DNA from: Modestobacter sp. L9-4
Lineage (GTDB): Bacteria; Actinomycetota; Actinomycetes; Mycobacteriales; Geodermatophilaceae
DNA length: 64,000 bases
Assembly (NCBI RefSeq): GCF_019112525.1
Contig: NZ_CP077800.1
Span: 2,604,001-2,668,000 of the forward strand
Reading direction: 5' to 3'
The notes under the pieces were generated by a model. That model had not been told where the DNA came from. It saw nothing but the letters and a program-made list of their open reading frames with translations, and did no database searches. Shown here piece by piece: positions 12,631 to 46,372 of this stretch. The translations under genes were made by a program, and so were the position numbers. Within the stretch, counting starts at the first letter, position 1. Every line of letters starts with the position of its first letter.

Positions 12631-13778
12631 TGCTGCGGGCTCACCAGCCGGCCGCCCGCCGCGGCCAGCCAGGCGTCCGTGCGGCGGTCCCAGGTGCGCG
12701 CCGACGCCCAGGCCACGCGGTCCTCGGCCCAGTCCGCGGGTTCGTCGGCGGCCGCCTGCAGGGCCTCGACCATCTCCGCGGCGCCGTCCACCACGTAGGT
12801 GTGCGGCGGCACGTCGCTGGAGTGCTCCAGGTGCCCGGCGGTCGCGACCACCGGGACGCCGCGGGAGCAGTAGTCGTAGGTCTTCATCGACGACTGGCCC
12901 AGCGCCCGGCTCGCCACGTCGGGGATCAGCCCGACGGCGGCGGCGTCCAGCACCTCGGGCAGCCGGTCGCGCGACAGCAGCCCGGCGTAGCAGAACCGGC
13001 CGGGGAACTCGCGCTCCAGACCGAGGAACTCCTCGGCCGCGGCCTGCGCGCGCAGCGGGAACACCAGCTGCCCGTGCACGGTGAGCGTCCAGTCCGGCAG
13101 GGCGGTGAGCACCGCGCGCACCAGGTCGACGTCGAACCGCTCGGCGACGCTGCCCACGTAGACCGCCGACCGCGGCACCCGCTCGACCGTGCGCGGCGCG
13201 GCCAGCAGCGCGGCGTCGGTGCCGTTGGGCACGACGACCGGCGTCCGGCCGGGGAAGAGGTCGGCCAGCACCTGGTTGACCACCACGACCTCGTCGGCCT
13301 CGTCGGCGATCCGGCGCAGCTGCTCGCGCAGCCCGCGGGCCTGCGGCAGCAGCCGCGCCCAGTCGTCGGTGCAGTCGAAGACCACCCGGCCGCCGACCCC
13401 GCGGGTGGCCCGCCACTCCCACGGGAACATGACCACGGTGAGCTCCTGCTCCCAGCCCGAGCGGCGCAGGAACCGGTTGTAGAGGGCTGCGTCGACCCGC
13501 TCGGCGACCGGCCCGCGCAGCCCGGGCAGCAGGGTGGAGCGCTCGGAGACCTCGATGCCGGGTGCCACCGGCAGGAACTGGCCGCGCCCGACGTGCCGGG
13601 TCCAGTTGCCCGGGTCGGTGGTCAGCCGGCGCCAGTCGCTGGGCGCCTGCACGAAACGCACCGGGACGCCGCGGCGCACCAGCTCACCGGCGATCATGTG
13701 CTCGCGCCGGATGGCCGGGTTCCACGGGTCCTTGGCGAGGAAGCCGACGCCGGGACGGGGGTCTGACGAGGTGTTCAG
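12627..13778 (-). CDS. glycosyltransferase, GT-B type
   Basis: About 383 residues. The N-terminal domain starts VGFLAKDPWNPAIRREHMIAG; the middle holds VVFDCTDDW and the linker VVVPNGTD; the C-terminal donor domain has SAVYVGSVAERFDVDLV and GLIPDVASRALGQSSMKTYDYCSRGVPVV, where the usual E-x7-E site is replaced by a related but divergent sequence. It probably transfers a sugar to a cell-surface glycan. The only in-frame start that keeps the N-terminal strand is a CTG at 13778, preceded by GGAGG (13785-13789) with a six-base gap; the next in-frame ATG would remove over 20 residues. It is divergent from the TupA-like gene, with 70 bp between them. Confidence 0.82.
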   Translation of the reverse strand: MNTSSDPRPGVGFLAKDPWNPAIRREHMIAGELVRRGVPVRFVQAPSDWRRLTTDPGNWTRHVGRGQFLPVAPGIEVSERSTLLPGLRGPVAERVDAALYNRFLRRSGWEQELTVVMFPWEWRATRGVGGRVVFDCTDDWARLLPQARGLREQLRRIADEADEVVVVNQVLADLFPGRTPVVVPNGTDAALLAAPRTVERVPRSAVYVGSVAERFDVDLVRAVLTALPDWTLTVHGQLVFPLRAQAAAEEFLGLEREFPGRFCYAGLLSRDRLPEVLDAAAVGLIPDVASRALGQSSMKTYDYCSRGVPVVATAGHLEHSSDVPPHTYVVDGAAEMVEALQAAADEPADWAEDRVAWASARTWDRRTDAWLAAAGGRLVSPQH

Positions 13779-13848
13779 CGCAGGCCTCCGGTGGTCACGG
13801 CTGCACCCTAGAAGGCGCCCGCTCCGCACGTCCCGGCAGACTGGTCGT

Positions 13849-14727
13849 GTGCGTCCGATCGCCGCGTCGTTGCCGGACGCCGTCGTCTCGCGGCTGCCGC
13901 TCCGGGTGAAGCGGGCCGTGCTCTTCCGGCGTGCGCACGGCCGCTGGCCGGCCCGCTGTCCGCGGACGTTCACCGAGAAGGTCAACTGGCGGGTGGTGCA
14001 CGACCGGCGGCCGTTGATCGGGCAGCTGGGCGACAAGCTGGCGATGAAGGCCTACGCGGCCGAGGCGTTCCCGGCGGTGCAGGTGCCGCGGGTGCTGTGG
14101 ACCGGCACCGACGTCGCCGACCTGCCCGGCGCCGGGCTGCCGGAGCGCTGGGTGCTGAAGTCCAACCACGGCACCATGCGCGTGCACATCGGCACCGGGG
14201 TGCCCGACGTGGCGGAGCTGCGCCGGGTCACCGCCGGCTGGCTGGACGAGCCGCTGTTCCGATCGCGTGGTGAGTGGGTCTACAGCCAGGCCCGGCGGCT
14301 GCTGCTGGTCGAGGAGTTCATCGGCGCCGACGGTGCCGTGCCCGCCGACCACAAGTTCCTCGTCTTCGGTGGCCGGGTGCGGCTGGTGCAGGTCGACACC
14401 GGGCGGTTCGGCGCGCACCGGCGGCGCCTCTACGACCCGGACTGGACGCCGGTGACGGTCGCCGAGGCGGTCGCGCCCGGCCCGGTCACCCCGCCACCGG
14501 CCGGGCTCGCGGAGATGACGAAGGTGGCCGAGGCGCTGGGCGCGGCCTTCGACTTCGTCCGGGTCGACCTGTTCGACGTCGACGGCGAGGTGTGGTTCGG
14601 CGAGCTCACGCCCTACCCCGGCGGCGGGCTGGACGCCTTCGACCCGGTGCTGGACGAGCAGCTGGGGGAGTGGTGGCAGCTGCCGGCGCGGTCAGCCGTG
14701 CGTGCGGGCCAGCAGGTCCGCCGCTGA
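13849..14727 (+). CDS. TupA-like ATP-grasp protein (surface polysaccharide/polypeptide biosynthesis)
   Basis: About 292 residues from a GTG at 13849. It has the pattern of TupA-like ATP-grasp proteins: FTEKVNWRVVHDRRPLI near the start, DKLAMKAYAAE, WVLKSNHGTMRVHI, EEFIGADGAVPADHKFLVFGG and the C-terminal DFVRVDLFDVDGEVWFGELTPYPGGG, which supplies the ATP/metal-binding acidic residues. Family members are found in teichuronopeptide and capsule gene groups and are thought to ligate amino acids or similar groups onto a glycan. The divergent glycosyltransferase supports a polysaccharide role. The last 36 bp overlap the end of the PHP gene on the opposite strand. Confidence 0.82.
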   Translation: MRPIAASLPDAVVSRLPLRVKRAVLFRRAHGRWPARCPRTFTEKVNWRVVHDRRPLIGQLGDKLAMKAYAAEAFPAVQVPRVLWTGTDVADLPGAGLPERWVLKSNHGTMRVHIGTGVPDVAELRRVTAGWLDEPLFRSRGEWVYSQARRLLLVEEFIGADGAVPADHKFLVFGGRVRLVQVDTGRFGAHRRRLYDPDWTPVTVAEAVAPGPVTPPPAGLAEMTKVAEALGAAFDFVRVDLFDVDGEVWFGELTPYPGGGLDAFDPVLDEQLGEWWQLPARSAVRAGQQVRR

Positions 14728-26606: not shown

Positions 26607-27896
26607 TCACGGACGACGCCGCAGGACCTCGCGGGAGAGCTGGTCGACCGAGGTGTGCCCGGTCAGGCCCAGGGTGAGGTCGAACTCGGCGAGCACGTCC
26701 TCCACCACCTGCCGGACGCCGTCCTCGCCGCCCAGGCCCAGGCCCCAGGCGAACGGCCGGCCCAGCAGCACCGCGCGGGCGCCGAGCGCCACGGCGACCA
26801 GCACGTCGGCGCCGCTGCGCACCCCGCTGTCGAACAGCACCGGTACCCGGTCGTCGACGGCGTCCACCACGTCGGGCAGGGCGTCGAGTGCGGCGATCGA
26901 GCGGTCGACCTGGCGCCCGCCGTGGGTGCTGACCACCAGGCCGTCGACGCCCTCGTCGACCGCGCGCCGGGCGTCGTCGGGGTGCAGGACGCCCTTGAGC
27001 ACGATCGGCAGGCGGGTGTGCTCCCGCAGGAAGGCCAGGTCGTCCCAGGTGATCGAGGGCCGGGAGTAGATGGCCAGGAACGTCTCCACCGCCGCCCGGG
27101 GGAGTGGTGAGCGCAGGTTCTCCACCAGCGGGCCCGGCCAGGCGCGGGCCATCCCCACCAGCGCGCGCACCGCCGCCGGGGTGGGCCGGGGCTGCGGGTC
27201 CCGCGGGGCGCCGTCGGCGGCCGCGGCCCGCTCGGCCACCAGCCGGCGGAACACCGGGTCGGAGGTGTACTGCGCGATCCCCTTGCCCAGGGCGAAGGGC
27301 AGGTGGCCCAGGTCCAGGTCGCGCGGCCGCCAGCCGAGCATCGTGGTGTCGAGGGTGACGACGACGGCCTCGCAGCCGCTGGCCTCCGCCCGGCCCAGCA
27401 GGCTGGCGACCAGCTCGTCGGAGCTGGACCAGTACAGCTGCATCCAGCGCGGTGCGTCGCCCATCGCCGCGGCCGTGGTCTCCATCGGCACCGACGCCTG
27501 GTTGGAGAACACCATCGGCACGCCCACCGCCGCCGCGGCCCGGGCCACGGCCAGGTCGGCCTCGGGGTGCAGCAGCTCCAGGGCGCCGACCGGGCCCAGC
27601 AGCACCGGCGCGGGCAGCCGCCGTCCGAACAGCTCGACCGAGGTGTCCCGGACGCTCACGTCGCGCAGCACCCGCGGCACCACCGACCAGCGGTCGAAGG
27701 CGGCCAGGTCGGCACGCTGGGTGTCCTCGCCGCCGGCGCCCCCGGCCACGTAGCCGTACGCGCGGGCGCCCAGTCGCGCCCGCGCCTGGCGGGCCAGTGC
27801 CCGGTAGGCGGTCGGGACGCGCGGCGTGTGCCCGTAGGCCCCGGCCCGGTACACCGCGTCCTGCCGCCGCCGCCCGGTGCCCGCCGCTGAGCTCAT
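26607..27896 (-). CDS. FMN-dependent alpha-hydroxy-acid oxidase (lactate 2-monooxygenase-like)
   Basis: 429 residues. The family signatures are present: [12 protein letters not shown] for FMN near residue 50, [20 protein letters not shown] with the FMN-contacting Lys, and the active-site [11 protein letters not shown] (His base and Arg), followed by [27 protein letters not shown]. Enzymes of this family oxidise 2-hydroxy acids such as lactate, mandelate or glycolate. The length and internal insert fit the lactate 2-monooxygenase/lactate oxidase subgroup better than quinone-dependent LldD. The ATG at 27896 is chosen over an upstream frame extension without coding character. Confidence 0.88.
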
Positions 27897-28095
27897 CGGT
27901 CCACCGTAGTGACGCGCGTCTCGCCGGCCGCCAGCACCCGTCCATCCGACACGCCCGTCGGGACACGCCGATGACACGGAAGTGACTGGAGTGACTGAGC
28001 GGCCACGCACTGCATGCTCCGGCGATGATCAGGGCAGTGCAGCCAGCGTGCCGGGGAGGTCGCCCTCCGGCTGGGCAGATCGGGGGAGCTCCACC

Positions 28096-29247: not shown

Positions 29248-29331
29248 CCCGGCCGACCGGCCCGGCGCGCGGTGCCGCCGGTGCACCGGCGATCCTGGAC
29301 ACACACCTCGACGACAGACGTGGACCCGCTC

Positions 29332-29850
29332 ATGGACCAGCACATGGACCGCCTGCACGACGGCGCGCCGCCCCGCGGCGTGCCCCGTGACGTGCGCGGC
29401 CTGGCTGCCGCGGGCCCCAGCGCCACCGAGACCTGGCTGCGCATCGTCCAGGTGCACGACCGGATCACCCACCGCGTCGACTCGGCGCTGCACCGCCAGC
29501 ACGGGCTGTCGCTGACCGGCTTCGAGGTGCTGCGCCGGGTCGCGGAGGCACCCGAGGAGTGGGCCTCGATGGGCGACCTCGCCGAGGCGGTCGGGCTCTC
29601 CCGCCCGGGCATCACCAGCACGGTGAACCGGCTGGTGGACGACGGACTGGTCACCCGCGAGCGGCTGGGCGAGGACCGCCGTCTGCTGCACGCCCGGCTC
29701 ACCGACTCCGGCCGGGAGCGGGTGCGCGCGGCCACCGCCACCCACGACGACCTGGTCGCGCACCTGCTCACGATGCTCGGCGACGACGCCCCCGTGGTCA
29801 CCGACGCCCTGGCCCGCGTCTCCGCCGCCACCCGCCGCCCCCGCGCCTGA
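29332..29850 (+). CDS. MarR family transcriptional regulator
   Basis: 172 residues. The winged-helix MarR fold is clear: HGLSLTGFEVLRRVAEAPE, MGDLAEAVGLSRPGITSTVNRLVDDGLVTRE (recognition helix) and the wing RLGEDRRLLHARLTDSGRE. It acts as a dimeric DNA-binding repressor that usually releases on binding a phenolic ligand. The ATG at 29332 is used; earlier starts in frame lack coding character. Its target is not evident; the nearest downstream gene cluster begins 290 bp later beyond a hairpin. Confidence 0.88.
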   Translation: MDQHMDRLHDGAPPRGVPRDVRGLAAAGPSATETWLRIVQVHDRITHRVDSALHRQHGLSLTGFEVLRRVAEAPEEWASMGDLAEAVGLSRPGITSTVNRLVDDGLVTRERLGEDRRLLHARLTDSGRERVRAATATHDDLVAHLLTMLGDDAPVVTDALARVSAATRRPRA

Positions 29851-29950
29851 CCGCCCTGCGCCCGCGGCCGCTCCGCCGTCCGCCGCTGTGCGCCGGGCTC
29901 AGGCGCCGCGGTGCTGCGGTTGAGGCGCCGCGGTGCTCCGGGCTGAGGCA

Positions 29951-30001
29951 TAGGAACCAATACGTGCGTCCCAGCGCCCAGGACGCCGGTATTGGTTCCT
30001 A
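29951..30001. terminator. long compound hairpin between MarR and the heptose operon
   Basis: Outer arms TAGGAACCAATAC (29951-29963) and its exact complement (29989-30001), two mismatched pairs, then inner arms GCGTCC (29966-29971) and GGACGC (29981-29986). This is a 21-position stem with a nine-base loop. It may be a MarR terminator or part of a regulatory RNA or repeat element. Confidence 0.55.
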
Positions 30002-30141
30002 CGCCTGCCTGACTGGCGGACGGTGGCGGTTGTGGGAATCCGTGCGTGGGCGTCCCTCGAACGGGGTAGTTCTCGGCCTGCCCGGGGAAAACTTAAAGCC
30101 CGTAGTGTTTCCGGAGTGGATCTCCAGGGGATCGTGAGGGC

Positions 30142-31641
30142 ATGACGGGTGACCTGAGCGGCTGCACGGTGGTCGTGCCGACCATCGGACGCCCGTCCCT
30201 CGACGTGCTGCTCGACGCGCTCGCGACCAGCACCGGGCCGCGGCCGGCCGAACTGGTGCTCGTCGACGACCGGCCCACCGGCGAGCCGCTGCACCCCGAC
30301 CGCCCGGGTCTGCCCCCGGTGCGGGTGGTGCGCACCGGCGGCGGCGGCCCCGCCCGCGCCCGCAACCTGGGCTGGCGCACCGCGCGCACCGAGTGGATCG
30401 CCTTCCTCGACGACGACGTCGTCCCCGACCCCGACTGGTACGACCAGCTCGCCGCCGACCTCGCCGCACTGCCGGACGACGTCGCCGGCACCCAGGGCCG
30501 CGTGCGCGTGCCGCTGCCGGAGGACCGCAGGCCCACCGACTGGGAGCGCGGCACCGCGGGCCTGGCCACCAGCAGCTGGATCACCGCCGACCTCGCCTAC
30601 CGCCGCTCCGCCCTGGCCGCGGTCGGCGGGTTCGACGAGCGCTTCCCGCGCGCCTTCCGCGAGGACTCCGACCTCGCGCTGCGGGTGCTGGACACCGGCT
30701 CCTCGCTGACCCGCGGGCAGCGCTGGATCACCCACCCGGTGCGCCCGGTCGACCGCTGGGTCTCCGCCCGCGTGCAGGCCGGCAACGCCGACGACGTGCT
30801 GATGCGCCGCCTCCACGGCCCCACCTGGCGCGACCGCGCCGAGGCCGCCCTCGGCCGCCGCCCCCGCCACCTCGCCGTCACCGGTGCCGCGCTCGCCGCC
30901 GTCGGCCTGCTCGCCGCCGGGAAGCCGAAGGCCGCCGGGCTGGCCGCGCTGGGCTGGCTGGCCGGGACGGCGGAGTTCGCCTGGGCCCGCATCGCCCCCG
31001 GCCCGCGCGACCGCGCCGAGGTCACCACCATGGCCCTGACCAGTGCGGTCATCCCGCCGCTGGCCACCTGGCACTTCCTGCGCGGCGCCGTCGTGCACCG
31101 CGACGTCCCGGCCTGGCGCGGGCTGCCCGACCTGGTGCTCTTCGACCGCGACGGCACGCTCGTGCACGACGTCCCCTACAACGGCGACCCCGCGCTCGTC
31201 GCCCCGGTCGACGGCGCGCGCGAGTCGCTGGACGCGCTGCGCGCCCGCGGCGTGCGGATCGGGCTGGTCACCAACCAGTCCGGCGTCGGCCGTGGCCTGA
31301 TCACCTGCGCGCAGGCCGACGCCGTCAACGCCCGGGTCGCCGAGCTGCTGGGTCCCTTCGACACCGTGCAGGTCTGCCCGCACGCCCCCGAGGACGGCTG
31401 CGACTGCCGCAAGCCCGCGCCCGGCATGGTGCTGGCGGCCTGCGCCGAGCTGGGCGTCGAGCCGGCCCGCTGCGTGGTCATCGGCGACATCGCCGCCGAC
31501 GTCGGCGCCGCGGCCGCGGCCGGTGCGCGGGGCATCCTCGTGCCCACGCCGGTCACCCTTCCCGCTGAGGTCACCGCTGCCCGCCACCGCGCGCCCACGC
31601 TCACCGAGGCGGTCGAGGACGTGCTGGCGGGAGCCTGGTGA
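30142..31641 (+). CDS. fusion of GT2 glycosyltransferase and GmhB-like heptose bisphosphate phosphatase
   Basis: 499 residues. Residues 1-235 are a GT2 family glycosyltransferase (CTVVVPTIGRPS start, FLDDD donor motif at 89-92, FREDSDLALR for the acceptor side). Residues ~245-325 are hydrophobic and may sit in the membrane. From ~333 comes a HAD-IIIA phosphatase like GmhB: LFDRDGTLVHD (nucleophile Asp at 335), VTNQSGVGRG, and the zinc-site loop CPHAPEDGCDCRKPAPGM, then VVIGDIAADVGAAAAAG. GmhB removes the 7-phosphate from glycero-manno-heptose 1,7-bisphosphate. Fusion to a glycosyltransferase is unusual. ATG with GAGGG just upstream; first gene of a seven-gene operon and coupled to the next by GTGA. 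Confidence 0.9.
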   Translation: MTGDLSGCTVVVPTIGRPSLDVLLDALATSTGPRPAELVLVDDRPTGEPLHPDRPGLPPVRVVRTGGGGPARARNLGWRTARTEWIAFLDDDVVPDPDWYDQLAADLAALPDDVAGTQGRVRVPLPEDRRPTDWERGTAGLATSSWITADLAYRRSALAAVGGFDERFPRAFREDSDLALRVLDTGSSLTRGQRWITHPVRPVDRWVSARVQAGNADDVLMRRLHGPTWRDRAEAALGRRPRHLAVTGAALAAVGLLAAGKPKAAGLAALGWLAGTAEFAWARIAPGPRDRAEVTTMALTSAVIPPLATWHFLRGAVVHRDVPAWRGLPDLVLFDRDGTLVHDVPYNGDPALVAPVDGARESLDALRARGVRIGLVTNQSGVGRGLITCAQADAVNARVAELLGPFDTVQVCPHAPEDGCDCRKPAPGMVLAACAELGVEPARCVVIGDIAADVGAAAAAGARGILVPTPVTLPAEVTAARHRAPTLTEAVEDVLAGAW

Positions 31642-32639
31642 GCCGCACCGTCCTCGTCGCCCGGCTGGACAACGCCGGCGACGTCCTGCTGCAGGGCCCG
31701 CTGGTGCGCGCGGTCGCGCACGGCGCCGACCGCGTGGTGTTCCTGGCCAGCCCGCAGGGCACCGCCGCCGCCGAGCTGCTGCCCGGCGTGGACGAGGTGC
31801 TCACCTGGCACTGCCCGTGGATCGACGGTCACCCGCAGCCGGTCGACGCCGCCGACCTGGCGGCGCTGGCCGACCGCGTGCGAGCCGCCGGCGTCACCGA
31901 GGCGGTCATCAGCACGAGCTTCCACCAGTCGCCGCTGCCGCTCGCGCTGGTGCTGCGCACCGCGGGGGTGGGCCGGATCAGTGCGATCAGCGTCGACTAC
32001 CCCGGCTCCCTGCTCGACGTCCGGCACCGTGTGGACGACGACCAGCCCGAGCCCGAGCGCGCCCTGTCCCTGGCCCGCGCGGCCGGCTTCGAGCTGCCGG
32101 ACGGCGACGACGGCCGGCTCGCCGTCCGTCGTCCGCTGCCCGCCGTGGACCGGGAGCCGGGCTACGTCGTCCTGCACCCCGGCGCGAGCGTGCCGGCGCG
32201 GGCGTGGCCGGCCGAGCGCTGCGGCGAGGCCGTCGAGGCGCTCGCCGATGCCGGGTACCGCGTCGTCGTCACCGGTGGGCCGGGGGAGCGGGAGCTCACC
32301 GCCACCGTCGCCGGCACCCGCGGTACCGACCTCGGCGGGGCCACCACGCTGGCGGAGATGGCGGCGCTGCTCGACGGCGCCGCCGCGGTCGTGGTCGGCA
32401 ACACCGGCCCCGCGCACCTGGCCGCCGCCGTCGGCACGCCGGTCGTCTCGCTGTTCTCCCCGGTCGTGCCGGCCGTGCGGTGGGCGCCCTACGGCGTCCC
32501 GACCGTGCTGCTCGGCGACCAGTCCGCCCCCTGCCGTGACTCCCGGGCCCGCGAGTGCCCGGTGCCGGGGCACCCCTGTCTGTCCTCCGTCACCGCGGCC
32601 GACGTCGTCGCCGCCGTCGAGAAGCTGGTGGCCGCGTGA
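31638..32639 (+). CDS. heptosyltransferase-like GT9 glycosyltransferase
   Basis: 333 residues, normal for GT9. The start MSRTVLVARLDNAGDVLLQGPLV is the heptosyltransferase N-terminal strand and glycine loop; the C-terminal donor domain has VLHPGASVPARAWPAERCGEA and VVVGNTGPAHLAAAVGTPVVSLFSP, the GT9 sites that hold a nucleotide-heptose. In Gram-negative bacteria GT9 enzymes add heptose to LPS core. Here the acceptor must be a different glycan or lipid. GTG start in a GTGA overlap with the fusion gene and another GTGA overlap at its end. Confidence 0.9.
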   Translation: MSRTVLVARLDNAGDVLLQGPLVRAVAHGADRVVFLASPQGTAAAELLPGVDEVLTWHCPWIDGHPQPVDAADLAALADRVRAAGVTEAVISTSFHQSPLPLALVLRTAGVGRISAISVDYPGSLLDVRHRVDDDQPEPERALSLARAAGFELPDGDDGRLAVRRPLPAVDREPGYVVLHPGASVPARAWPAERCGEAVEALADAGYRVVVTGGPGERELTATVAGTRGTDLGGATTLAEMAALLDGAAAVVVGNTGPAHLAAAVGTPVVSLFSPVVPAVRWAPYGVPTVLLGDQSAPCRDSRARECPVPGHPCLSSVTAADVVAAVEKLVAA

Positions 32640-33601
32640 AGGTCCTGCTCTGGCACGTGCACGGCTCGTGGACGACGTCCTTCGTCCAGGGCGCCCACGA
32701 GTACCTTCTGCCGATCGTCCCGGGCCGCGGGCCCGACGGCCTGGGCCGCGCCCGCACCTGGGACTGGCCCGCCTCGGTGCGCGAGGTGACGCCGGAGCAG
32801 CTGCGCGAGGAGCAGCCCGACGTCGTCGTCCTGCAGCGCACCCGCGACCTGGAGCTCGTGCGCGAGTGGCTGGGGCGCGAGCCCGGCCGCGACCTGCCGG
32901 CGGTGTTCCTGGAGCACAACGCCCCCGACGGCTCGGTGCCCAACACCCGGCACCCGCTGGCCGACCAGGCCGAGATCCCGATCGCGCACGTCACCTACTT
33001 CAACCAGCTCTTCTACGACAACGGCTCGGCGCCCACCACGGTGATCGAGCACGGCATCGTCGACCCCGGCGAGCGCTACACCGGCGAGCTCGCCCGGGCC
33101 GGCGTCGTGGTCAACGAGCCGGTCCGCCGCGGCCGGTACACCGGCGGCGACCTGCTGCCGCTGCTGAGCTCGGCCGCCCCGCTCGACGTCTTCGGCATGG
33201 GCCTGACCGGCCTGCATGAGCGCTACGGCCTGGACCCCGAGCGGGTCGGGCTGTTCGACGACCCGCCGCAGCACGCGATGCACGGCGAGCTGGCCCGCCG
33301 CCGGGTCTACGTCCACCCGGTGCGCTGGACGTCGCTGGGCCTGTCGCTGCTGGAGGCCATGCACCTGGGCATGCCGGTCGTCGGCCTGGCCACCACCGAG
33401 GCCGTCGAGGCGGTGCCTGCCGAGGCCGGCGTGCTGTCGACGAACCCCGCGGTCCTGGCCCGGGCGCTCAAGCACTTCGTCGACGAGCCGGACGCCGCCC
33501 GGCTGGCCGGCAAGGCCGCCCGCGCCGCCGCGCTCGGGCGCTACGGCCTGGACCGCTTCCTCGCCGACTGGGACGCGCTGCTGGCGGAGGTGACCCGGTG
33601 A
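32636..33601 (+). CDS. glycosyltransferase, GT4-like
   Basis: About 321 residues from the GTG at 32636, which overlaps the preceding stop (GTGA). The start is VKVLLWHVHGSWTTSFVQG; the middle has FLEHNAPDG and VIEHGIVDPG; the C-terminal half reads SLGLSLLEAMHLGMPVVGLATTEAVE, the usual E-x7-E region of the GT-B fold. Shorter than typical GT4 proteins but complete. The sugar is unknown; its place in the operon points to a heptose-containing glycan. Ends in another GTGA overlap. Confidence 0.83.
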   Translation: MKVLLWHVHGSWTTSFVQGAHEYLLPIVPGRGPDGLGRARTWDWPASVREVTPEQLREEQPDVVVLQRTRDLELVREWLGREPGRDLPAVFLEHNAPDGSVPNTRHPLADQAEIPIAHVTYFNQLFYDNGSAPTTVIEHGIVDPGERYTGELARAGVVVNEPVRRGRYTGGDLLPLLSSAAPLDVFGMGLTGLHERYGLDPERVGLFDDPPQHAMHGELARRRVYVHPVRWTSLGLSLLEAMHLGMPVVGLATTEAVEAVPAEAGVLSTNPAVLARALKHFVDEPDAARLAGKAARAAALGRYGLDRFLADWDALLAEVTR

Positions 33602-34836
33602 CCGCCGACGTCCTGGACGCCTACCGGCTGCGGATCTCGCTGGTCAGCGAGCACGCCAGCCCGCTGGCCGCCATCGGCGGGGTCGACGCCGGCGGGCAGA
33701 ACGTGCACGTCGCCGCGCTGGCCGCCGGCCTGGCCACCCGCGGTCACGAGGTCACCGTCCACACCCGCCGGGACGACGCCGCGCTCCCCGAGCGGGTGCG
33801 CACCGCCGACGGCTACGACGTCGTGCACGTGACCGCGGGCCCGGCCACCGTGTTGCCCAAGGACGACCTGCTGCAGCACATGGGCACCTTCGCCGACGTG
33901 CTGCGCGCCGCCTGGGTGCTGCAGCCGCCGGACCTGGTGCACGCCCACTTCTGGATGAGCGGCCTGGCCTCGGTGCAGGCCGCCGCGGGTCTCGGCATCC
34001 CGGTGCTGCAGACCTTCCACGCGCTCGGCTCGGTCAAGCGCCGGCACCAGGGCGACGCCGACACCTCGCCCGAGCAGCGCCTGGACCTCGAGCGCGGCCT
34101 GTGCGCCGACGTCGAGCACGTCATCGCCACCTGCACCGACGAGGTCCTCGAGCTGTCCCGGATGGGCCTGACCGGCGACCGCGTCTCGATCGTGCCGTGC
34201 GGCGTCGACACTGCCGAGTTCACCCCGCGCGGCCCGGTCGCCGAGCGCTCCGGGCGCCCGCGGCTGCTCGTGCTGGGCCGGCTCGTCGAGCGCAAGGGCC
34301 AGGAGGACGCCGTCCGTGCCCTGCCCGCCGTCCCCGGCGCCGAGCTGGTCGTCGTCGGCGGGCCGCAGACCCACCTGCTGGACGCCGACCCCGAGGTCCA
34401 GCGGCTGCGTGCGATCGCCGCCGAGCTCGGGGTGGCCGACCGGCTGGTGTTCACCGGTGCCGTCTCGCGGGCCGACGTCCCGGGCTGGATCCGCTCGGCC
34501 GACGTCGTCCTCGCCGTGCCCTGGTACGAGCCCTTCGGCATCACCCCGCTGGAGGCGATGGCCTGCGGCCGCCCGGTCGTGGCCACCGCCGTCGGCGGGC
34601 TGGCCGACTCCGTCGCCGACGGCGTCACCGGCGACCTCGTGCCCCCGCGCGACCCAGCCGCCCTCGGCGCCGCGCTGGCATCCCTGCTCGCGGACGACGA
34701 GCGCCGGGCCGGCTACGGCGCCGCCGGCGTCAAGCGCGCCCGCACCCGTTACCGCTGGTCCCGCGTCGTGGCCGACACCGACGCCGTCTACCGCCAGGTC
34801 CTGGCCGCCCGATCCACCATGGAGGTCGCTCGATGA
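33598..34836 (+). CDS. glycosyltransferase family 4 protein
   Basis: 412 residues, GTG start. The N-terminal domain starts SLVSEHASPLAAIGGVDAGGQNVHVAALA, the GGxDxGGQN-type loop of the sucrose-phosphate synthase/GT4 group. The donor domain has LVLGRLVERKGQEDAVRAL near residue 222 and VPWYEPFGITPLEAMACGRPVVAT (E-x7-E) near 305. Member of the heptose operon; both borders overlap neighbours by 4 bp (GTGA and ATGA). The donor may be a heptose or hexose nucleotide. Confidence 0.9.
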   Translation: MTADVLDAYRLRISLVSEHASPLAAIGGVDAGGQNVHVAALAAGLATRGHEVTVHTRRDDAALPERVRTADGYDVVHVTAGPATVLPKDDLLQHMGTFADVLRAAWVLQPPDLVHAHFWMSGLASVQAAAGLGIPVLQTFHALGSVKRRHQGDADTSPEQRLDLERGLCADVEHVIATCTDEVLELSRMGLTGDRVSIVPCGVDTAEFTPRGPVAERSGRPRLLVLGRLVERKGQEDAVRALPAVPGAELVVVGGPQTHLLDADPEVQRLRAIAAELGVADRLVFTGAVSRADVPGWIRSADVVLAVPWYEPFGITPLEAMACGRPVVATAVGGLADSVADGVTGDLVPPRDPAALGAALASLLADDERRAGYGAAGVKRARTRYRWSRVVADTDAVYRQVLAARSTMEVAR

Positions 34837-35495
34837 CGCAGTCCACCGACCGTGAGGTGGTCTCGCCCGACGCCTGCACGCACCTGACCGGGCACGACCA
34901 CGTCGCCTCGCTGAGCGCGGCACTGGGCAGTCTCAGCGCGCAGGTCGACGTCCTGGACCGCTGGGGCCGGCAGCTCGCCGACGTGCTCACCGGCGAGTCC
35001 CGTGGCCGGCTGCTCGCCGCCGGCAACGGCGGCAGTGCCGCGCAGGCCCAGCACCTCACCGCCGAGCTGGTGGGCCGCTACCGCGCCGACCGCCCGCCGT
35101 TCTCCGCGATCTGCCTGACCGCGGAGACCTCCTCGCTGACCGCGATCGCCAACGACTACCCGGCCGACGAGCTGTTCGCCCGCCAGGTCGAGGCGCACGG
35201 CCGCCCCGGCGACGTGCTGGTGCTGCTGTCGACGTCGGGCCGCAGTCCCAACGCCGTCGCCGCCGCCCGCCGCGCCCGCGACTGCGGCATCACCGTGCTG
35301 GCGATGACCGGGCCGGCGCCGAACCCGCTGGCCGCGATCGCCGACGAGGCGGTGTGCATCGACTCGGAGTGGACCGCCACCGTGCAGGAGTGCCACCTGG
35401 TCGCGCTGCACCTGCTGTGCGCCGCCTTCGACGCCGCGGTGCTCGCCGAGTCGCCGCGGGTGTCCACCACCAACCACGTGGAGGTCGTGCAGTGA
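34833..35495 (+). CDS. gmhA: SIS-domain phosphoheptose isomerase, GmhA type
   Basis: 220 residues (GmhA is about 190-200; here with a ~25-residue N-terminal extension). SIS domain with GNGGSAAQAQHLTAELVGRY near residue 63, LLSTSGRSPNAVAAA, and the active-site TVQECHLVALHLLC near 183, where Glu and His match the family. GmhA converts sedoheptulose 7-phosphate to D-glycero-D-manno-heptose 7-phosphate. ATGA overlap with the upstream GT4 gene and GTGA overlap with the HldE-like gene. The next gene is a heptose kinase, which confirms the assignment. Confidence 0.9.
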   Translation: MTQSTDREVVSPDACTHLTGHDHVASLSAALGSLSAQVDVLDRWGRQLADVLTGESRGRLLAAGNGGSAAQAQHLTAELVGRYRADRPPFSAICLTAETSSLTAIANDYPADELFARQVEAHGRPGDVLVLLSTSGRSPNAVAAARRARDCGITVLAMTGPAPNPLAAIADEAVCIDSEWTATVQECHLVALHLLCAAFDAAVLAESPRVSTTNHVEVVQ

Positions 35496-36838
35496 TCGTC
35501 GTCGTCGGTGACGCCCTGCTCGACGTCGACCTGGTCGGCACCGCCTCCCGGCTCACCCCGGACGCGCCGGTGCCCGTCATCGACGACGCCGTGACCCACG
35601 AGCGCCCTGGCGGTGCCGCGCTGGCCGCCGTCCTGGCCGCGTCCTCGGGCGAGGAGGTCACGCTCGTGGCCCCGGTCGGCGATGACGAGGGTGCCGACCG
35701 GCTGCGGGCGCTGCTCGCCGGCCGGGTGCAGCTCATCGAGATCCCGGCGACCAGCCCCACCGCGGTCAAACAGCGCATCCGGGTCGGCGACCACTCCGTC
35801 GCCCGGCTCGACACCGGGGGAGCGACGACGACCTTCGGCGCCCTGCCCGCCGCGGCGGCCGAGGCCATCGCGACCGCGTCCGCCGTGCTCGTGGCCGACT
35901 ACGGCCGCGGGACGACGTCGGCTCCCGACGTGCGCGCCGCGCTGTCCGCCGCCCGCGGCCCGGTCGTCTGGGACCCGCACCCGCGCGGCGCGGACCCCGT
36001 GCCGTCGGTCCGGCTGGTCACGCCCAACGGGTCCGAGGCCGCCCGGGTGGCGCCCGAGGTCACCGGCGACGGTCTGGCCGCGGTCGGCGCGCGCGCCGAG
36101 GCGCTGATCCGGGCCTGGGGCGTCGGCGCGGTCGCCGTCACCCTCGGCGCCCGTGGCGCGCTGCTGTCCTACGGCGAGGGCGCGCCCATGGTCGTGCCGG
36201 CCACCCCGGTCACCGGCGGCGACCCGTGCGGTGCCGGTGACTCCTTCGCCGCCGCGGTCACCGTCGCGCTCGCCGGTGGTGCCGTGACCGGCGAGGCCGT
36301 CACCGCCGCCGTCGCGGCCGCCGGCGCCTTCGTCGGTCGCGGCGGGGCCACCGCGTGGGACGCCGCACCGGCCGCCGCCGAGCCCACCGCCCCCGACGTC
36401 GACGCGCTGCTCGCCCGGGTGCGCGCCGCCGGTGGAACGGTCGTGGCCACCGGTGGCTGCTTCGACCTGCTGCACGCCGGGCACGTCGCCACGCTGCGGG
36501 CCGCGCGCGGGCTGGGCGACTGCCTGGTCGTCTGCATCAACTCCGACGACTCGGTGCGCCGGCTCAAGGGCCCGACGCGCCCGCTGGTCGCCGCCGAGGA
36601 CCGGGCCCGGGTGCTCGAGGCGCTGGAGTTCGTCGACGCCGTCGTCGTCTTCGGTGAGGACACCCCGTCGGCGGTCCTGGAGCGGCTGCGGCCGGACGTG
36701 TGGGCCAAGGGCGGCGACTACGCCGGCGCCGACCTGCCCGAGTCCGCCGTGCTGCGCACCTGGGGCGGCCAGGCCGTCGTCCTGCCCTACCTGGACGGCC
36801 ACTCGACCACCGCCCTGGTCGAGCGCTCCCGAGTGTGA
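35492..36838 (+). CDS. hldE: bifunctional heptose 7-phosphate kinase / heptose 1-phosphate nucleotidyltransferase, HldE type
   Basis: 448 residues (HldE is about 475). Residues 1-~295 are a PfkB/ribokinase-like kinase with the anion hole GGDPCGAGDSFAAA (base Asp in GAGD). Residues ~310-448 are a cytidylyltransferase-fold domain: GCFDLLHAGHVATLRAAR (HxGH), NSDDSVRRLKGPTRPLV and KGGDY. The protein would make heptose 1,7-bisphosphate and later couple heptose 1-phosphate to a nucleotide, usually ATP. With the GmhA and GmhB activities in the same operon, the path to ADP-D-glycero-beta-D-manno-heptose is complete. GTG start in a GTGA overlap. Confidence 0.9.
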   Translation: MIVVVGDALLDVDLVGTASRLTPDAPVPVIDDAVTHERPGGAALAAVLAASSGEEVTLVAPVGDDEGADRLRALLAGRVQLIEIPATSPTAVKQRIRVGDHSVARLDTGGATTTFGALPAAAAEAIATASAVLVADYGRGTTSAPDVRAALSAARGPVVWDPHPRGADPVPSVRLVTPNGSEAARVAPEVTGDGLAAVGARAEALIRAWGVGAVAVTLGARGALLSYGEGAPMVVPATPVTGGDPCGAGDSFAAAVTVALAGGAVTGEAVTAAVAAAGAFVGRGGATAWDAAPAAAEPTAPDVDALLARVRAAGGTVVATGGCFDLLHAGHVATLRAARGLGDCLVVCINSDDSVRRLKGPTRPLVAAEDRARVLEALEFVDAVVVFGEDTPSAVLERLRPDVWAKGGDYAGADLPESAVLRTWGGQAVVLPYLDGHSTTALVERSRV

Positions 36839-37797
36839 CGGCCGCACCAGGAGGCCATGTTCGCGAGCATGGCCCCGACGGGCGGCCGACCGCGGTCGTC
36901 CTGCGGCCGCTGGGGCTCGGGGACCTGCTGACCGGGGTGCCGGCGATCCGGGGCATCCGGGCCGCCGTCCCCGGTCATCGGCTGGTGCTGGCGACGACGC
37001 GGGCGCTGGAGCCGCTGGCCGCGCTGATCGACGCCGTCGACGAGGTGCTGCCCGCCGTCGAGCTCGAGCCGCTGGACTGGGCCGGCCCGCCGCCGGAGCT
37101 GGCCGTCGACCTGCACGGCAAGGGCCCGGCCTCGCACGTGGTCGTCGCCGGCCTGCACCCGCAGCGGCTGCTCACCTTCGACAGCCCCGGCTACCCGGGC
37201 CCCACCTGGTACGCCGACGAGCACGAGGTGCGGCGCTGGTGCCGGCTGGTCGACGAGGGCCTGGACGTCCGCTGCGCCCCCGACGCGCTCGACCTGCGGG
37301 TCCCCGACGTCGAGCCGCCGGTGCGCGGCGTCGCCGTCGTCCACCCCGGCGCGGCGTTCCCCGGACGGCGCTGGCCGGCCGAGCGGTTCGCCGCCGTCGC
37401 CCGGCACCTGCGGGCGCAGGGCCACGACGTGCGCGTCACCGGCGGCCCGGCCGAGGTCGAGCTGGCCCGCTCGGTGGCCGCCGCTGCCGGGCTCCCCGAC
37501 GACGCGGTGCTCGCCGGGCGCACCAGCTCCCTCGGGCTGGCCGCGGTGGTCGCCGCCGCGGCCGTCGTCGTCTGCGGTGACACCGGGGTCGCCCACCTCG
37601 CCACGGCCTACCGGCGTCCCTCGGTGGTGCTGTTCGGCCCGGTGTCCCCGGCGCTGTGGGGCCCGCCGTCACGCCCGCAGCACGTCGTCCTCTGGCACGG
37701 CGACGGCACCGGCGACCCGCACGGCACCGCGCTCGACCCCGCGCTCGCCCGCATCACCGTCGACGAGGTCACCGCCGCCCTCGACGCACTGCTCTGA
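36835..37797 (+). CDS. heptosyltransferase-like GT9 glycosyltransferase (second copy)
   Basis: About 320 residues from the GTG at 36835 (GTGA overlap). The start VVLRPLGLGDLLTGVPAIRGIR, the VVHPGAAFPGRRWPAERFAAVA site and VVCGDTGVAHLATAYRRPSVVLFGPVSPALWGPP are all GT9 marks. Only loosely similar to the GT9 protein at 31638-32639, so the two probably act at different positions or acceptors. Last gene of the operon; a hairpin follows at 37799-37836. Confidence 0.9.
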   Translation: MTAAPGGHVREHGPDGRPTAVVLRPLGLGDLLTGVPAIRGIRAAVPGHRLVLATTRALEPLAALIDAVDEVLPAVELEPLDWAGPPPELAVDLHGKGPASHVVVAGLHPQRLLTFDSPGYPGPTWYADEHEVRRWCRLVDEGLDVRCAPDALDLRVPDVEPPVRGVAVVHPGAAFPGRRWPAERFAAVARHLRAQGHDVRVTGGPAEVELARSVAAAAGLPDDAVLAGRTSSLGLAAVVAAAAVVVCGDTGVAHLATAYRRPSVVLFGPVSPALWGPPSRPQHVVLWHGDGTGDPHGTALDPALARITVDEVTAALDALL

Positions 37798-37837: not shown

Positions 37838-39508
37838 TCAGCTGCGGCGGCGGATGGCGTCGAAGAGCACGCCCTGCAGGTCCTCGGGGTCCAGGCACGG
37901 GTAGGCCGCACCGCCGGTGGCGTCGCCGATCCGCTGCAGCGCCCCCAGGTCGGCGTCCGGGCCCAGCGCGATGCCGACGACCTTCACCGGACGCGCCGGG
38001 TCGGCCTCCGAGCGCAGCGTGTCCAGCAGCGCCGGGAGGTCGATGGCGGCCTCGTCGTCGTCGTCCTCGCCGTCGGTGATCAGGACGACGGTGTTCACCG
38101 CGTTCGGGTCGTAGGCGTCCCGGGCGGCGCGCACCGCGGCCAGGGTCGTGTCGTAGAGGCCCGTGCCGCCGGGGGAGAGCCGGTCCGGGAGGGTGTCGAA
38201 CTGCTCGTCGATCAGCTGCCGCTGCGTCTTCCCGTCGCCGGCGTCGGCGCCGAAGGTGCGCAGCGGCGCGAGCTCGACCCAGTCGCGGTCGCCGTCGAGC
38301 CGGTGGGCGAAGGCCCAGACGCCGCCGGAGTGGGAGTCGGGCAGCAGGCTCAGCGCGCTCTTGCCGGCGTCGCGCTCCAGCGTGGCCCGGGTGCCGTCGC
38401 CGGCCGGGGCCTCCATCGAGGTGGAGACGTCCATGACGGTGAGCAGCCGGGACGGCGTCGCCAGGCTGGACAGCCGGCCGAGCAGCGCCTGCACCGCAGC
38501 GGCGTCCAGTTCGACCGGCTGCGGGGCGGCCTCCTGGACGCCGGTGCCGGTGCCCGCCCCGAGCGGGGAGCCGCCCTGCTGGTCGCGGAAGCCCGCGGCG
38601 CGCGCCTGCTCGCCGACCGTGTCCGCGGTCAGTGCCTGCACCACGGCGTCCACCGCGCGGCGCTGCAGGTCGTCGTCGACGGGCAGCCGCAGCACCGGGT
38701 AGTCCAGCGACGGGGAGCCCTCGCGCGGGTAGACGGCCACCAGGGCGTCGGAGCCGGCCGCCTGGTTGGCCGCGAGCACCTCCTGCTCGCTGACCGGCAC
38801 CAGCGGGGCGTCCGCGCCGCCGGCGGTGCCGGCGGCCAGCGCGTCGGCGACGGTCGGGACGTCGCCGCGCCCGGCGGCCAGCACGGCCTCGACGACGGCG
38901 TTGTCGGCGTCGTCACCGCCACCGAGGGACTGCCGGACGGCGGCCAGCACCGACACGCCCTCGGCGCTGGCGGCGAGGTCGGGCACGGCCAGCGGGCGGT
39001 CGGTGGTGAGCGCCTCGCCCCAGCTCGGCGGGGTCGCGGTCCAGCCGAGCTGCTCGGCGGCGGCGCGGCTGGTGGCCAGCACGAGCGGGGAGGTGGCCAT
39101 CGAGCCCGCGGCCTGCAGGCGGCTGTCACCGGCGCGCGCCGCCCAGAGCGAGGAGTCGGGCACCCACACCTCGGGCTGCGCGTCCGCCCCCAGCGCGCCC
39201 AGGTCGGCCAGGGTCTGCAGCGGCTCGGTGGCGGTCACCTCGGCGACCGCGCAGGCGCCACCACCCAGGTCGAGCGGCTGGTCGAGCAGCTGCCCGGCCA
39301 GCTGCTCCAGCTCGGGGGCGACGGTGACCGGCACGGTGCGCCGGTCGGTGCAGGCAGCGGCGTCCGCGGCGGGGGGAGCGGACCGGTCACCGCTGGTCCA
39401 CCAGACCAGCCCGGCCACGACCACGGCGGCCACGATCGCGGCCAGCCCGGCCAGCAGGGCGGGGCGGCGGCGGTCGGAACGGGCACGGGTGTGGGCGTGG
39501 CGCCCCAT
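37838..39508 (-). CDS. membrane-anchored solute-binding/von Willebrand factor A protein
   Basis: About 556 residues. A basic start, one membrane helix (about 17-38), then a periplasmic-binding-protein-like domain (about 60-340, VPVTVAPELEQLAGQLLDQ and EVWVPDSSLWAARAG) and a VWA domain from ~360 with the MIDAS motif DVSTSM, then the Thr of GGTGLYD and ITDGEDDDDE. The order binding domain then VWA is seen in actinobacterial surface proteins. Probably binds a metal-dependent ligand outside the cell. The ATG at 39508 has GGAG seven bases ahead. A terminator of the upstream UXS gene lies between them, so it may have its own promoter. Confidence 0.85.
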   Translation of the reverse strand: MGRHAHTRARSDRRRPALLAGLAAIVAAVVVAGLVWWTSGDRSAPPAADAAACTDRRTVPVTVAPELEQLAGQLLDQPLDLGGGACAVAEVTATEPLQTLADLGALGADAQPEVWVPDSSLWAARAGDSRLQAAGSMATSPLVLATSRAAAEQLGWTATPPSWGEALTTDRPLAVPDLAASAEGVSVLAAVRQSLGGGDDADNAVVEAVLAAGRGDVPTVADALAAGTAGGADAPLVPVSEQEVLAANQAAGSDALVAVYPREGSPSLDYPVLRLPVDDDLQRRAVDAVVQALTADTVGEQARAAGFRDQQGGSPLGAGTGTGVQEAAPQPVELDAAAVQALLGRLSSLATPSRLLTVMDVSTSMEAPAGDGTRATLERDAGKSALSLLPDSHSGGVWAFAHRLDGDRDWVELAPLRTFGADAGDGKTQRQLIDEQFDTLPDRLSPGGTGLYDTTLAAVRAARDAYDPNAVNTVVLITDGEDDDDEAAIDLPALLDTLRSEADPARPVKVVGIALGPDADLGALQRIGDATGGAAYPCLDPEDLQGVLFDAIRRRS

Positions 39509-39619
39509 CTGGGATCTCCGTCGTGTCCCCAGGCCCCTCACGGGTGCCCGGCGCCCCCTGGGCGAGCGGCCGTCGTCGGTGGGCAACTGTACCCATCCGG
39601 ACAGGCCACGTCAGGGGCC

Positions 39620-39643
39620 GCTGACCACCGCCCGGTGGTCAGC
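39620..39643 (-). terminator. hairpin at the end of the UDP-glucuronate decarboxylase gene
   Basis: Perfect 10-bp stem (39620-39629 with 39634-39643) and GCCC loop; overlaps the stop codon at 39639-39641. Confidence 0.55.
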
Positions 39644-40628
39644 CGACCTGTGTCAGCGCCGCCTCGCGCTGGGCGGCGAACCACGCCACGGTGCGGCGCA
39701 GGCCCTCCTCGGAGGTGACCGTCGGCGCCCAGCCGAGGGCCTCGGTGGCCAGCGTGGTGTCGGGGCGGCGCACCTTCGGGTCGTCGACGGGCAGGTCGAT
39801 GAAGCCGATCTCGGACTCCGAGCCGGTGAGCTCGACGATCCAGCGGGCCAGCTCCAGCATCGACAGCTCGTCGGGGTTGCCGACGTTCATCGGGCCGGTC
39901 TCGGTGGACAGCGCCAGCGCCAGGATGCCGCGCACGGTGTCGTCGACGTAGCAGATGGAGCGGGTCTGCGACCCGTCGCCGGCCACCGTCAGCGGCCGTC
40001 CGGAGAGCGCCTGACCGACGAAGGCGGGGATGGCGCGACCGTCGTCGGCGCGCATCCGCGGGCCGTAGGTGTTGAAGATGCGCACGATCGCGGTGTCGAT
40101 GCCCTGCGAGGTGCGGTAGGCGGTGGTCAGCGCCTCGCTGAACCGCTTGGCCTCGTCGTAGACGCCGCGCGGGCCGACCGGGTTGACGTTGCCCCAGTAG
40201 TCCTCGCGCTGCGGGTGCTGCAGCGGGTCGCCGTACACCTCGGAGGTGGAGGCCAGCAAGAAGCGGGCGCCCTTCTCCTTGGCCAGGCCCAGCGCGTGCA
40301 GGGTGCCCAGGCTGCCGACCTTGAGGGTCTCGATCGGCATCTTCAGGTAGTCCAGCGGGCTGGCGGGGGAGGCGAAGTGCAGCACCAGGTCGACCGGTCC
40401 GGGCACGTGCACGTAGTCGGTGACGTCGCAGCGCACCAGCCGGAAGCCGGGGTGCTCCATCAGGTGCAGCACGTTCTCCGGCGACCCGGTGAGGAAGTTG
40501 TCCAGGCAGACGACCTCGACGCCCCGGTCGAGCAGCTGCTCGCACAGGTGGGAACCGAGGAACCCGGCCCCGCCGGTCACCACCGCGCGGCGGACCTCCC
40601 GCGGAGTGACTGCACCCTGGACTGCCAT
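39639..40628 (-). CDS. UDP-glucuronate decarboxylase (UDP-xylose synthase type SDR)
   Basis: 329 residues. Extended SDR with the NAD motif [15 protein letters not shown] near residue 19, STSEVYGDP and the catalytic YDEAK. The segment [30 protein letters not shown] is the UXS signature and separates it from GalE, RmlB and the heptose epimerase HldD. It converts UDP-glucuronate to UDP-xylose with CO2 release. GGAG precedes the ATG at 40628. It could supply a pentose for the surface glycans built by the nearby enzymes. Confidence 0.88.
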
Positions 40629-40709
40629 CGACGAGCTCCTGTCTGCCGCACCCGCGCGCCGGACCGCGCGGCCTGCGTCGTCCTGTCTACCCGGAGATCA
40701 ACTTCGCAC

Positions 40710-40729
40710 ACACTTCGGCCTTGAAGTGT
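40710..40729. promoter_or_regulatory. 20-bp palindrome upstream of the UDP-glucuronate decarboxylase gene
   Basis: ACACTTC (40710-40716) and GAAGTGT (40723-40729), a perfect 7-bp inverted repeat with a GGCCTT spacer, 80-100 bp before the start. Position and symmetry fit an operator; the regulator is unknown. Confidence 0.4.
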
Positions 40730-46057: not shown

Positions 46058-46142
46058 GGAGGATTCGCCTAGTGGCCTATGGCGCTCGCTTGGAAAGCGG
46101 GTTGGGTGCAAGCCCTCGGGAGTTCGAATCTCCCATCCTCCG
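46058..46142 (+). tRNA. tRNA-Ser(GGA)
   Basis: 85 bases. Acceptor GGAGGAT with ATCCTCC; anticodon loop TTGGAAA carries GGA; long variable arm; T arm GGGAGTTCGAATCTCCC. Its 5' half is nearly the same as that of tRNA-Ser(GCU) at 22023. Confidence 0.93.
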
Positions 46143-46199
46143 CAACTGGCCGCCCCCGGCGGCCGCACACCTGGCGCACCGTTCGTCCGGCGCGTCCTC

Positions 46200-46205
46200 T
46201 ACAGT
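46200..46205 (+). promoter_or_regulatory. -10 box for the SRP RNA
   Basis: TACAGT seven bases before the RNA 5' end. Confidence 0.45.
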
Positions 46206-46212
46206 GGTCCAC

Positions 46213-46299
46213 GACCCCTCGTGCGGCGTCACCCTGTGAACCTCCCCAGGGCCGGAAGGCAGCAAGGATAAGCGGGCTCTGACGGGTGTGCGAGGGGTC
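46213..46299 (+). ncRNA. ffs: signal recognition particle RNA (bacterial small form)
   Basis: About 87 bases. GACCCCTCG at the 5' end pairs with CGAGGGGTC at the 3' end, and the apical part carries the conserved Ffh-binding loop (AGGGCCGGAAGGCAGCAAGG). It binds Ffh to target membrane proteins. Position next to tRNA-Ser and close to dnaX is usual in actinobacteria. The exact ends may differ by a few bases. Confidence 0.93.
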
Positions 46300-46372
46300 C
46301 CTTGCGTCCTCCCACAGGCTCCTCCCAGGTTCGTGCGGTTCGATCCATGAACCTTCAACCTCGGGAGTGGAC

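Follow-up and report, generated by a model that had tools for sequence, protein, structure and literature searches.

Why should an actinomycete, a bacterium expected to lack lipopolysaccharide (LPS), carry a compact set of genes resembling those with which Gram-negative bacteria make and transfer the heptose of their LPS, and what might it build with them? We considered this question for Modestobacter sp. L9-4 (Geodermatophilaceae; genome of 4,224,113 bases in one contig) in a window of 64,000 nucleotides (assembly GCF_019112525.1, contig NZ_CP077800.1, positions 2,604,001 to 2,668,000), within which an earlier note had pointed to an unexpected heptose operon. The operon is real and widespread and is not new in kind: it matches the actinobacterial cwg operon, known from Streptomyces coelicolor though poorly understood there, in a rearranged Geodermatophilaceae layout. 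We consider it probable that this family form of cwg makes a carbamoylated oligosaccharide containing D,D-heptose, which would be exported and anchored by machinery encoded elsewhere.

The operon and its gene products

The operon (30142-37797 of the window, + strand) comprises seven genes in the order GT2-GmhB (fused), GT9, GT4-type, second GT4, GmhA, HldE and GT9. Each frame is open from start to stop with a third-position GC of 0.95-0.99, and every one of the six junctions is a 4-bp overlap (GTGA or ATGA), which confirms the fully overlapping seven-gene arrangement that had been proposed. Among 80 Geodermatophilaceae loci (that of the window included), the stop of one gene overlaps a potential start of the next at junctions 1 to 6 in 79, 80, 80, 80, 80 and 65 loci, respectively; the tight packing of the operon is conserved across the family.

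The first gene, G1 (30142..31641, +), encodes a GT2 domain (PF00535) fused to a HAD/GmhB domain (PF00702). Its top NCBIfam model is PRK08942 (111.5 bits, cut-off 178), the closest solved chains to its GmhB part are D,D-heptose 1,7-bisphosphate phosphatases, and alignment with these chains shows that the CxH...CxC loop and the DxD motif are retained. The phosphatase resembles the beta-heptose bisphosphate type (the same 111.5 bits) more than the alpha type (40.9 bits), both scores being under their cut-offs. The GT2 part (30142-31100, +) also resembles the mycofactocin glycosyltransferase MftF, below cut-off (85.7 of 280 bits). GT2 and GmhB form a single frame in 75 of the 80 family loci (four were not assessable and one has them in a different frame) and in 28 of 33 assessable loci of a phylum sample of 60; among the named loci outside the family's top matches (L237-L288, n = 52), five of 36 assessable loci had the fusion, 23 had adjacent genes and eight had the two apart. 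Fusion in some lineages and adjacency in others provides ordinary support for a functional link between the two domains.

Two genes encode GT9 glycosyltransferases of the heptosyltransferase family, as the earlier note had claimed: G2 (31638..32639, +; PF01075, 93 bits), which matches solved GT9 and WaaC/WaaF chains, and G7 (36835..37797, +; PF01075, 99 bits), which matches 3tov, WaaF 1psw and WaaC 2gt1/2h1f, both well over the PF01075 cut-off of 22. The claim of two GT4-like enzymes stands for G4 (33598..34836, +; PF00534, 120 bits), which is MshA-like, though under the cut-off for TIGR03449 (224 against 462.5 bits). The match of G3 (32636..33601, +) is weak by sequence (PF13692, 34.6 bits; PF00534, 33 bits), though its structure model (mean predicted local distance difference test score 85.7) has a GT-B fold with PimB', GlgM and BshA as its nearest relatives. 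G5 (34833..35495, +; PF13580, SIS) is a GmhA-type sedoheptulose 7-phosphate isomerase whose top solved matches are phosphoheptose isomerases. G6 (35492..36838, +) is an HldE-type heptose 7-phosphate kinase/heptose 1-phosphate adenylyltransferase (PF00294, PfkB, and PF01467, cytidylyltransferase), which scored 278.5 bits across 444 residues against PRK11316 (cut-off 521) and whose nucleotidyltransferase domain passes TIGR02199 (184.2 against 181.5 bits).

Correspondence to the cwg operon of Streptomyces

The S. coelicolor cwg cluster is SCO6179-6190, and the passages of PMC5839063 that concern it give the eighth gene, SCO6186 (cwgH), as a putative phosphoheptose isomerase and the ninth, SCO6187 (cwgI), as a putative bifunctional synthase/transferase, with putative transferases surrounding both. 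Streptomyces loci (e.g. L284) contain ten genes in the order epimerase (E, below), carbamoyltransferase, GT2, GmhB, GT9, G3, G4, GmhA, HldE and GT9, so that GmhA and HldE occupy the eighth and ninth positions, as SCO6186 and SCO6187 do, and the gene families, as seen in these loci, follow the same order from the carbamoyltransferase/GT2 through the final GT9. In both L284 and L270 the divergently oriented adjacent gene encodes a polysaccharide deacetylase, as described for SCO6178 in the relevant part of PMC6767563. The same part of that paper lists cwg as a sigma-E target of the envelope-stress response under 'Cell wall glycan synthesis', a product that is only putative in S. coelicolor as well. 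When 56 loci were scanned, the published cwg sigma-E promoter was recognised before E with one mismatch in L270, two in L088, four in L284 and seven in L095, the Streptomyces sites reading CATCTT; the other 52 loci had at least eight mismatches and the best shuffled sequence had nine. An exact search for this promoter with one position left free found none in 288 loci.

Modestobacter has the cwg gene set: the core of seven genes stands in order in the window with E close by, and the carbamoyltransferase gene is found elsewhere in the genome. Its layout differs from that of cwg in that GT2 and GmhB are fused, the carbamoyltransferase gene lies 0.55 Mb away, and E is convergent with the operon and has its own copy of a 20-bp site, no sigma-E-type promoter having been recognised.

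Distribution and partner genes

At an expectation value of at most 1e-30, HldE was detected in 96 of 112 Geodermatophilaceae genomes; of the 96 that are good (at least 90% complete and at most 5% contaminated), 87 gave a match. Followed through G3, the module is present in 88 of the 96 good genomes, and it is scattered through the Actinomycetota; together with its correspondence to cwg, this distribution leaves the original description of an unexpected heptose operon correct only in part. We took neighbourhoods from 79 of the other 95 HldE-matching family genomes (one paralogue locus, L072, was excluded from later counts) and found all eight domains in order in 76 of the 79, the remaining three being cut by a contig edge. 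Across the phylum, HldE was detected at the same threshold in 53 of 396 evenly drawn genomes. Besides that of the window, these comprise 37 with a cwg-type neighbourhood (five or more of six partners within the fetched stretch, each with at least 48% identity, several stretches ending at contig ends), two with a partial one, six with another HldE cluster and seven with few partners; these counts provide the survey of related genera that the earlier note had called for, and the gene order is kept there. The six core genes also lie in the fetched stretch in 66 of 80 named genomes, these being the best 80 of at least 580 G3 relatives. Within the same stretch, the 37 cwg-type genomes encode a carbamoyltransferase in 32 cases, a short-chain dehydrogenase in 29 and E in 13. 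The short-chain dehydrogenase gene lies between HldE and the last GT9 gene in many relatives (e.g. L087:11415-12107); the window operon and most of the family have none there.

The seven genes of the original inventory stand, but two members of the module, the carbamoyltransferase and E, had been overlooked. A single gene in the genome encodes a carbamoyltransferase C-terminal domain (C1:2082616-2084298, ~0.55 Mb from the operon), and its product shares 67% identity with an operon-linked counterpart from Streptomyces (L095). The raw open reading frame listing around it (L291), taken without a family search, showed no apparent envelope cluster. Among the 96 good family genomes, none has the carbamoyltransferase without G3 or G3 without the carbamoyltransferase: 88 have both, and neither is present in eight (G051, G053, G093, G096, G099, G100, G101 and G103), which fall within four genera (g3, g7, g8 and g9) and hence do not represent eight independent losses. 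In all three g8 and g9 loci fetched, the carbamoyltransferase gene is directly upstream of the operon.

Epimerase E (39639..40628, -), an NAD-dependent epimerase/dehydratase (PF01370, 171.6 bits), is 60-69% identical to the protein whose gene precedes that of the carbamoyltransferase in the Streptomyces loci compared, and it occurs in several arrangements around the module. Its best models are those of dTDP-glucose 4,6-dehydratase (137.4 bits, below cut-off). At an expectation value of at most 1e-90, E is absent from seven of the eight operon-less good genomes and from G083, and present in operon-less G093. On these comparisons E belongs to the module, with a co-occurrence less strict than that of the carbamoyltransferase. 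Directly downstream of E, a gene for a 582-aa protein (37838-39586, -) is conserved beside the operon in a large part of the family; the protein matched no Pfam (1e-5) or NCBIfam (1e-6) model, and contains a DxSxS-like stretch that we take to be reminiscent of a VWA domain.

A shared site upstream of the operon and epimerase E

A near-palindromic 20-bp element, ACTTMAAGSCCGTAGTGTTT, precedes the operon at 30091..30110 (+) and is conserved within 120 bp of the operon start, with at most three mismatches, in 73 of 77 family loci; the other four have at least nine mismatches, and the best match in shuffled upstream sequences had seven. The intergenic sequence around it is mostly unconserved in an alignment of the genus. 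The only other site in the genome with at most three mismatches (40708..40727, -) lies ~80 bp before E. Since a control search with the reversed pattern also gave one match, the number of second sites is in itself weak, and it is the location before E that matters. In its palindromic form, ACACTTCNNGGCCGAAGTGT, the site occurs before E with at most four mismatches in 52 of 73 family loci, compared to none of 73 shuffled sequences, these counts not being independent because the family members are related. We read the two sites as a shared candidate operator. A MarR-family regulator gene (29272..29850, +; PF12802, 54.2 bits) lies immediately upstream of the operon in 57 of 74 family loci and, judged from coordinates, ~6-8 kb upstream in three Blastococcus-side genomes (G023, G029 and G031); it also occurs in operon-less genomes, e.g. 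G051, G099 and G100. It is plausible only as a candidate for the protein that binds the 20-bp site.

Just ahead of the operon, 29896-30006 contains two 22-nt direct repeats and a hairpin with 26-nt arms that are 88% complementary, a stretch missing from the upstream regions of the closest relatives. The hairpin (29946-30006) was considered as a repeated element and rejected, being single-copy in the genome. No Rfam family, and so no riboswitch, matched upstream of the operon at gathering thresholds.

Predicted heptose chemistry

The four activities that would convert sedoheptulose 7-phosphate into ADP-D-glycero-beta-D-manno-heptose had been proposed to be all present and, by homology and catalytic motifs, the route is complete, with an altered kinase site. 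Among collected homologues, GmhA retains GNGGS in 187 of 187 and QExH in 185 of 187, and the HldE nucleotidyltransferase retains GxFDxxHxGH in 180 of 180 and KGGDY in 172 of 180; we take these motifs, and those of GmhB, to have their usual functional roles in the operon proteins. A profile search of the genome for HldD found none over the cut-off (best 118.3 against 274.6 bits), and the D,D form of the heptose should therefore be the end product, unless E acts on it.

Didomain kinase/nucleotidyltransferases are one of three types of nucleoside diphosphate-heptose synthetase described from actinobacteria and other kingdoms, and use of CTP or UTP by heptose nucleotidyltransferases has been tied to the STTR5 motif, (F/L)XXGRSTT (PMC11573728). 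The HldE of the window is a didomain protein like one of these types, not a tridomain one, and lacks the STTR5 motif, its sequence at this point being YLDGHSTT, so that ADP-D,D-heptose is expected as opposed to CDP- or UDP-heptose. Among 181 operon-type HldE relatives (at least 47% identical to that of the window), 64 have Arg at the STTR5 position.

The kinase domain departs from the canonical type. At position 44, Leu is found in 180 of the 181 operon-type sequences and Asn (GGAAN) in 12 of 13 of the canonical type; the operon-type kinases also lack the Asn four residues further on. By analogy with the ribokinase family, these residues presumably touch the sugar. A second, more distant type of HldE cluster in the phylum (L126, L129 and L131) has a canonical GGAAN-type HldE and encodes, in a different order, GmhA, GmhB, HldE, two GT9, G3-like and G4-like enzymes and a short-chain dehydrogenase.

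Other features of the window

The window also contains a gene for a TupA-like ATP-grasp protein (13534-14727, +; PF14305, 91.5 bits), another possible envelope-glycan gene; a gene for an FMN-dependent dehydrogenase resembling the pre-mycofactocin synthase MftD (26607-28010, -; 233 of 470.85 bits, below cut-off); and a bacterial small signal recognition particle RNA (46058-46305, +), ~70 bases past a tRNA-Ser gene.

Discussion

Our best reading of the product is a carbamoylated manno-heptose glycan of the envelope, a prediction in which ADP-D,D-heptose would be the donor. The GT2, two GT9 and two GT4-type enzymes would assemble a heptose-containing oligosaccharide on a presumed acceptor, in a presumed order of transfer and probably at the membrane. 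The carbamoyltransferase encoded elsewhere would decorate the oligosaccharide as its putative target, and machinery outside the cluster would export and anchor it, giving it the surface location that we propose. The 20-bp sites may coordinate the operon with E as an operator.

A number of our results weigh against this reading. We matched the operon to cwg by way of Streptomyces loci, on gene order, promoter and deacetylase, and not through the SCO sequences themselves; the cwg promoter was recognised in just four of the 56 scanned loci, the match in one being weak, and inspection of aligned upstream sequences by eye revealed no sigma-E promoter before the Modestobacter operon. Curated NCBIfam cut-offs were missed by GmhA, GmhB, full-length HldE, the HldE kinase domain and both GT9 enzymes; because only the nucleotidyltransferase domain of HldE passes such a cut-off, the gene assignments follow from homology and motifs. 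Within the cluster we recognised no gene for a transporter, a polymerase or an anchoring enzyme, and since a hydrophobicity scan of G1 gave no 19-residue window above 1.6 and no clear membrane helix, assembly at the membrane is something we only infer. Three operon-bearing Modestobacter genomes (G002, G016 and G021) have no E orthologue, only a paralogue of 55-56% identity elsewhere. Finally, the change from GGAAN to GGAAL is conserved in the operon-type kinases. It argues against the LPS route having simply been copied and is the best reason for considering another sugar, an alternative that the earlier note had itself named as its refutation and that this change keeps live.

This other sugar could be a different isomer of heptose, a heptose with modifications or no heptose at all, made by a retuned HldE kinase with E acting as a dehydratase. 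The loss of both Asn residues from the kinase and the nearness of E to dTDP-glucose 4,6-dehydratase models, albeit below cut-off, speak for it, whereas the heptose-pathway motifs retained in GmhA, GmhB and the nucleotidyltransferase, the last of which is over its curated cut-off, speak for heptose; on balance we consider a different sugar unlikely. Somewhat less credible still is that the heptose goes into a small glycolipid or secreted metabolite instead of a wall glycan. ADP-heptose is described, in the passages of the literature that bear on this, from Streptomyces makers of septacidin and hygromycin B, and in septacidin the heptose of this route enters the metabolite itself; a small product would also suit both a cluster in which polymer export genes were not recognised and the likeness of G4 to MshA and of the G3 fold to PimB' and BshA, enzymes acting on small or lipid acceptors. 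However, a near-universal presence in the family and a patchy yet broad one in the phylum are unlike the distribution of typical metabolite clusters, and the Streptomyces counterpart is, as far as PMC6767563 covers it, a target of envelope stress.

That the GT9 enzymes heptosylate proteins, like the autotransporter heptosyltransferases Aah and TibC, would agree with their family membership and with a weak match of G2 to TIGR04414, but this match (19.1 bits) is far under the cut-off of 200, and five glycosyltransferase domains with a carbamoyltransferase suggest an oligosaccharide, making this possibility a very slim one. The operon resembles the Gram-negative LPS pathway (GmhA, HldE, GmhB and HldD, with WaaC/WaaF) in its homologues of GmhA, HldE and GmhB and its pair of GT9 enzymes, and differs in having no HldD over cut-off, an altered kinase motif, and additional GT2/GT4-type enzymes and a carbamoyltransferase. 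If LPS-core genes had recently been taken over from a Gram-negative bacterium, the shared enzyme families would be explained, but the high third-position GC, the gene order conserved across the family and in many members of the phylum, and the non-canonical kinase signature leave this idea next to no credit, and we do not favour it.

With a cwg operon for carbamoylated D,D-heptose as the preferred reading, what is new is the definition of the module with its carbamoyltransferase and epimerase, the family-wide survey, the shared 20-bp site and the kinase signature. In the literature searched we recognised no paper that names cwg a heptose operon or describes cwg in Geodermatophilaceae: the word 'heptose' is absent from the main text of PMC6767563, none of five heptose terms was found in PMC13390465 and no 'cwg' in PMC9739842, and the one heptose passage of PMC12786566 concerns gmhD in Rhodococcus. 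Recognition of a heptose-plus-carbamoyltransferase module leads to the concrete prediction that the envelope contains carbamoylated D,D-heptose, with its partner genes named and the eight good family genomes that lack the module as natural controls. It would also place Gram-positive soil actinobacteria among the likely makers of ADP-heptose; the bearing that had been suggested on host sensing through ALPK1 is speculation, supported by nothing beyond the enzyme chemistry. More tentatively, and as a possibility to which we give somewhat less than even weight, the Actinomycetota may have in common a type of surface glycan that has gone unrecognised, a carbamoylated oligosaccharide or polymer of D-glycero-D-manno-heptose. 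The ten-gene cwg module would make it, in response to envelope stress in Streptomyces and under a dedicated two-site operator in Geodermatophilaceae. If so, the ten-gene module would represent LPS-core-like chemistry on Gram-positive envelopes.

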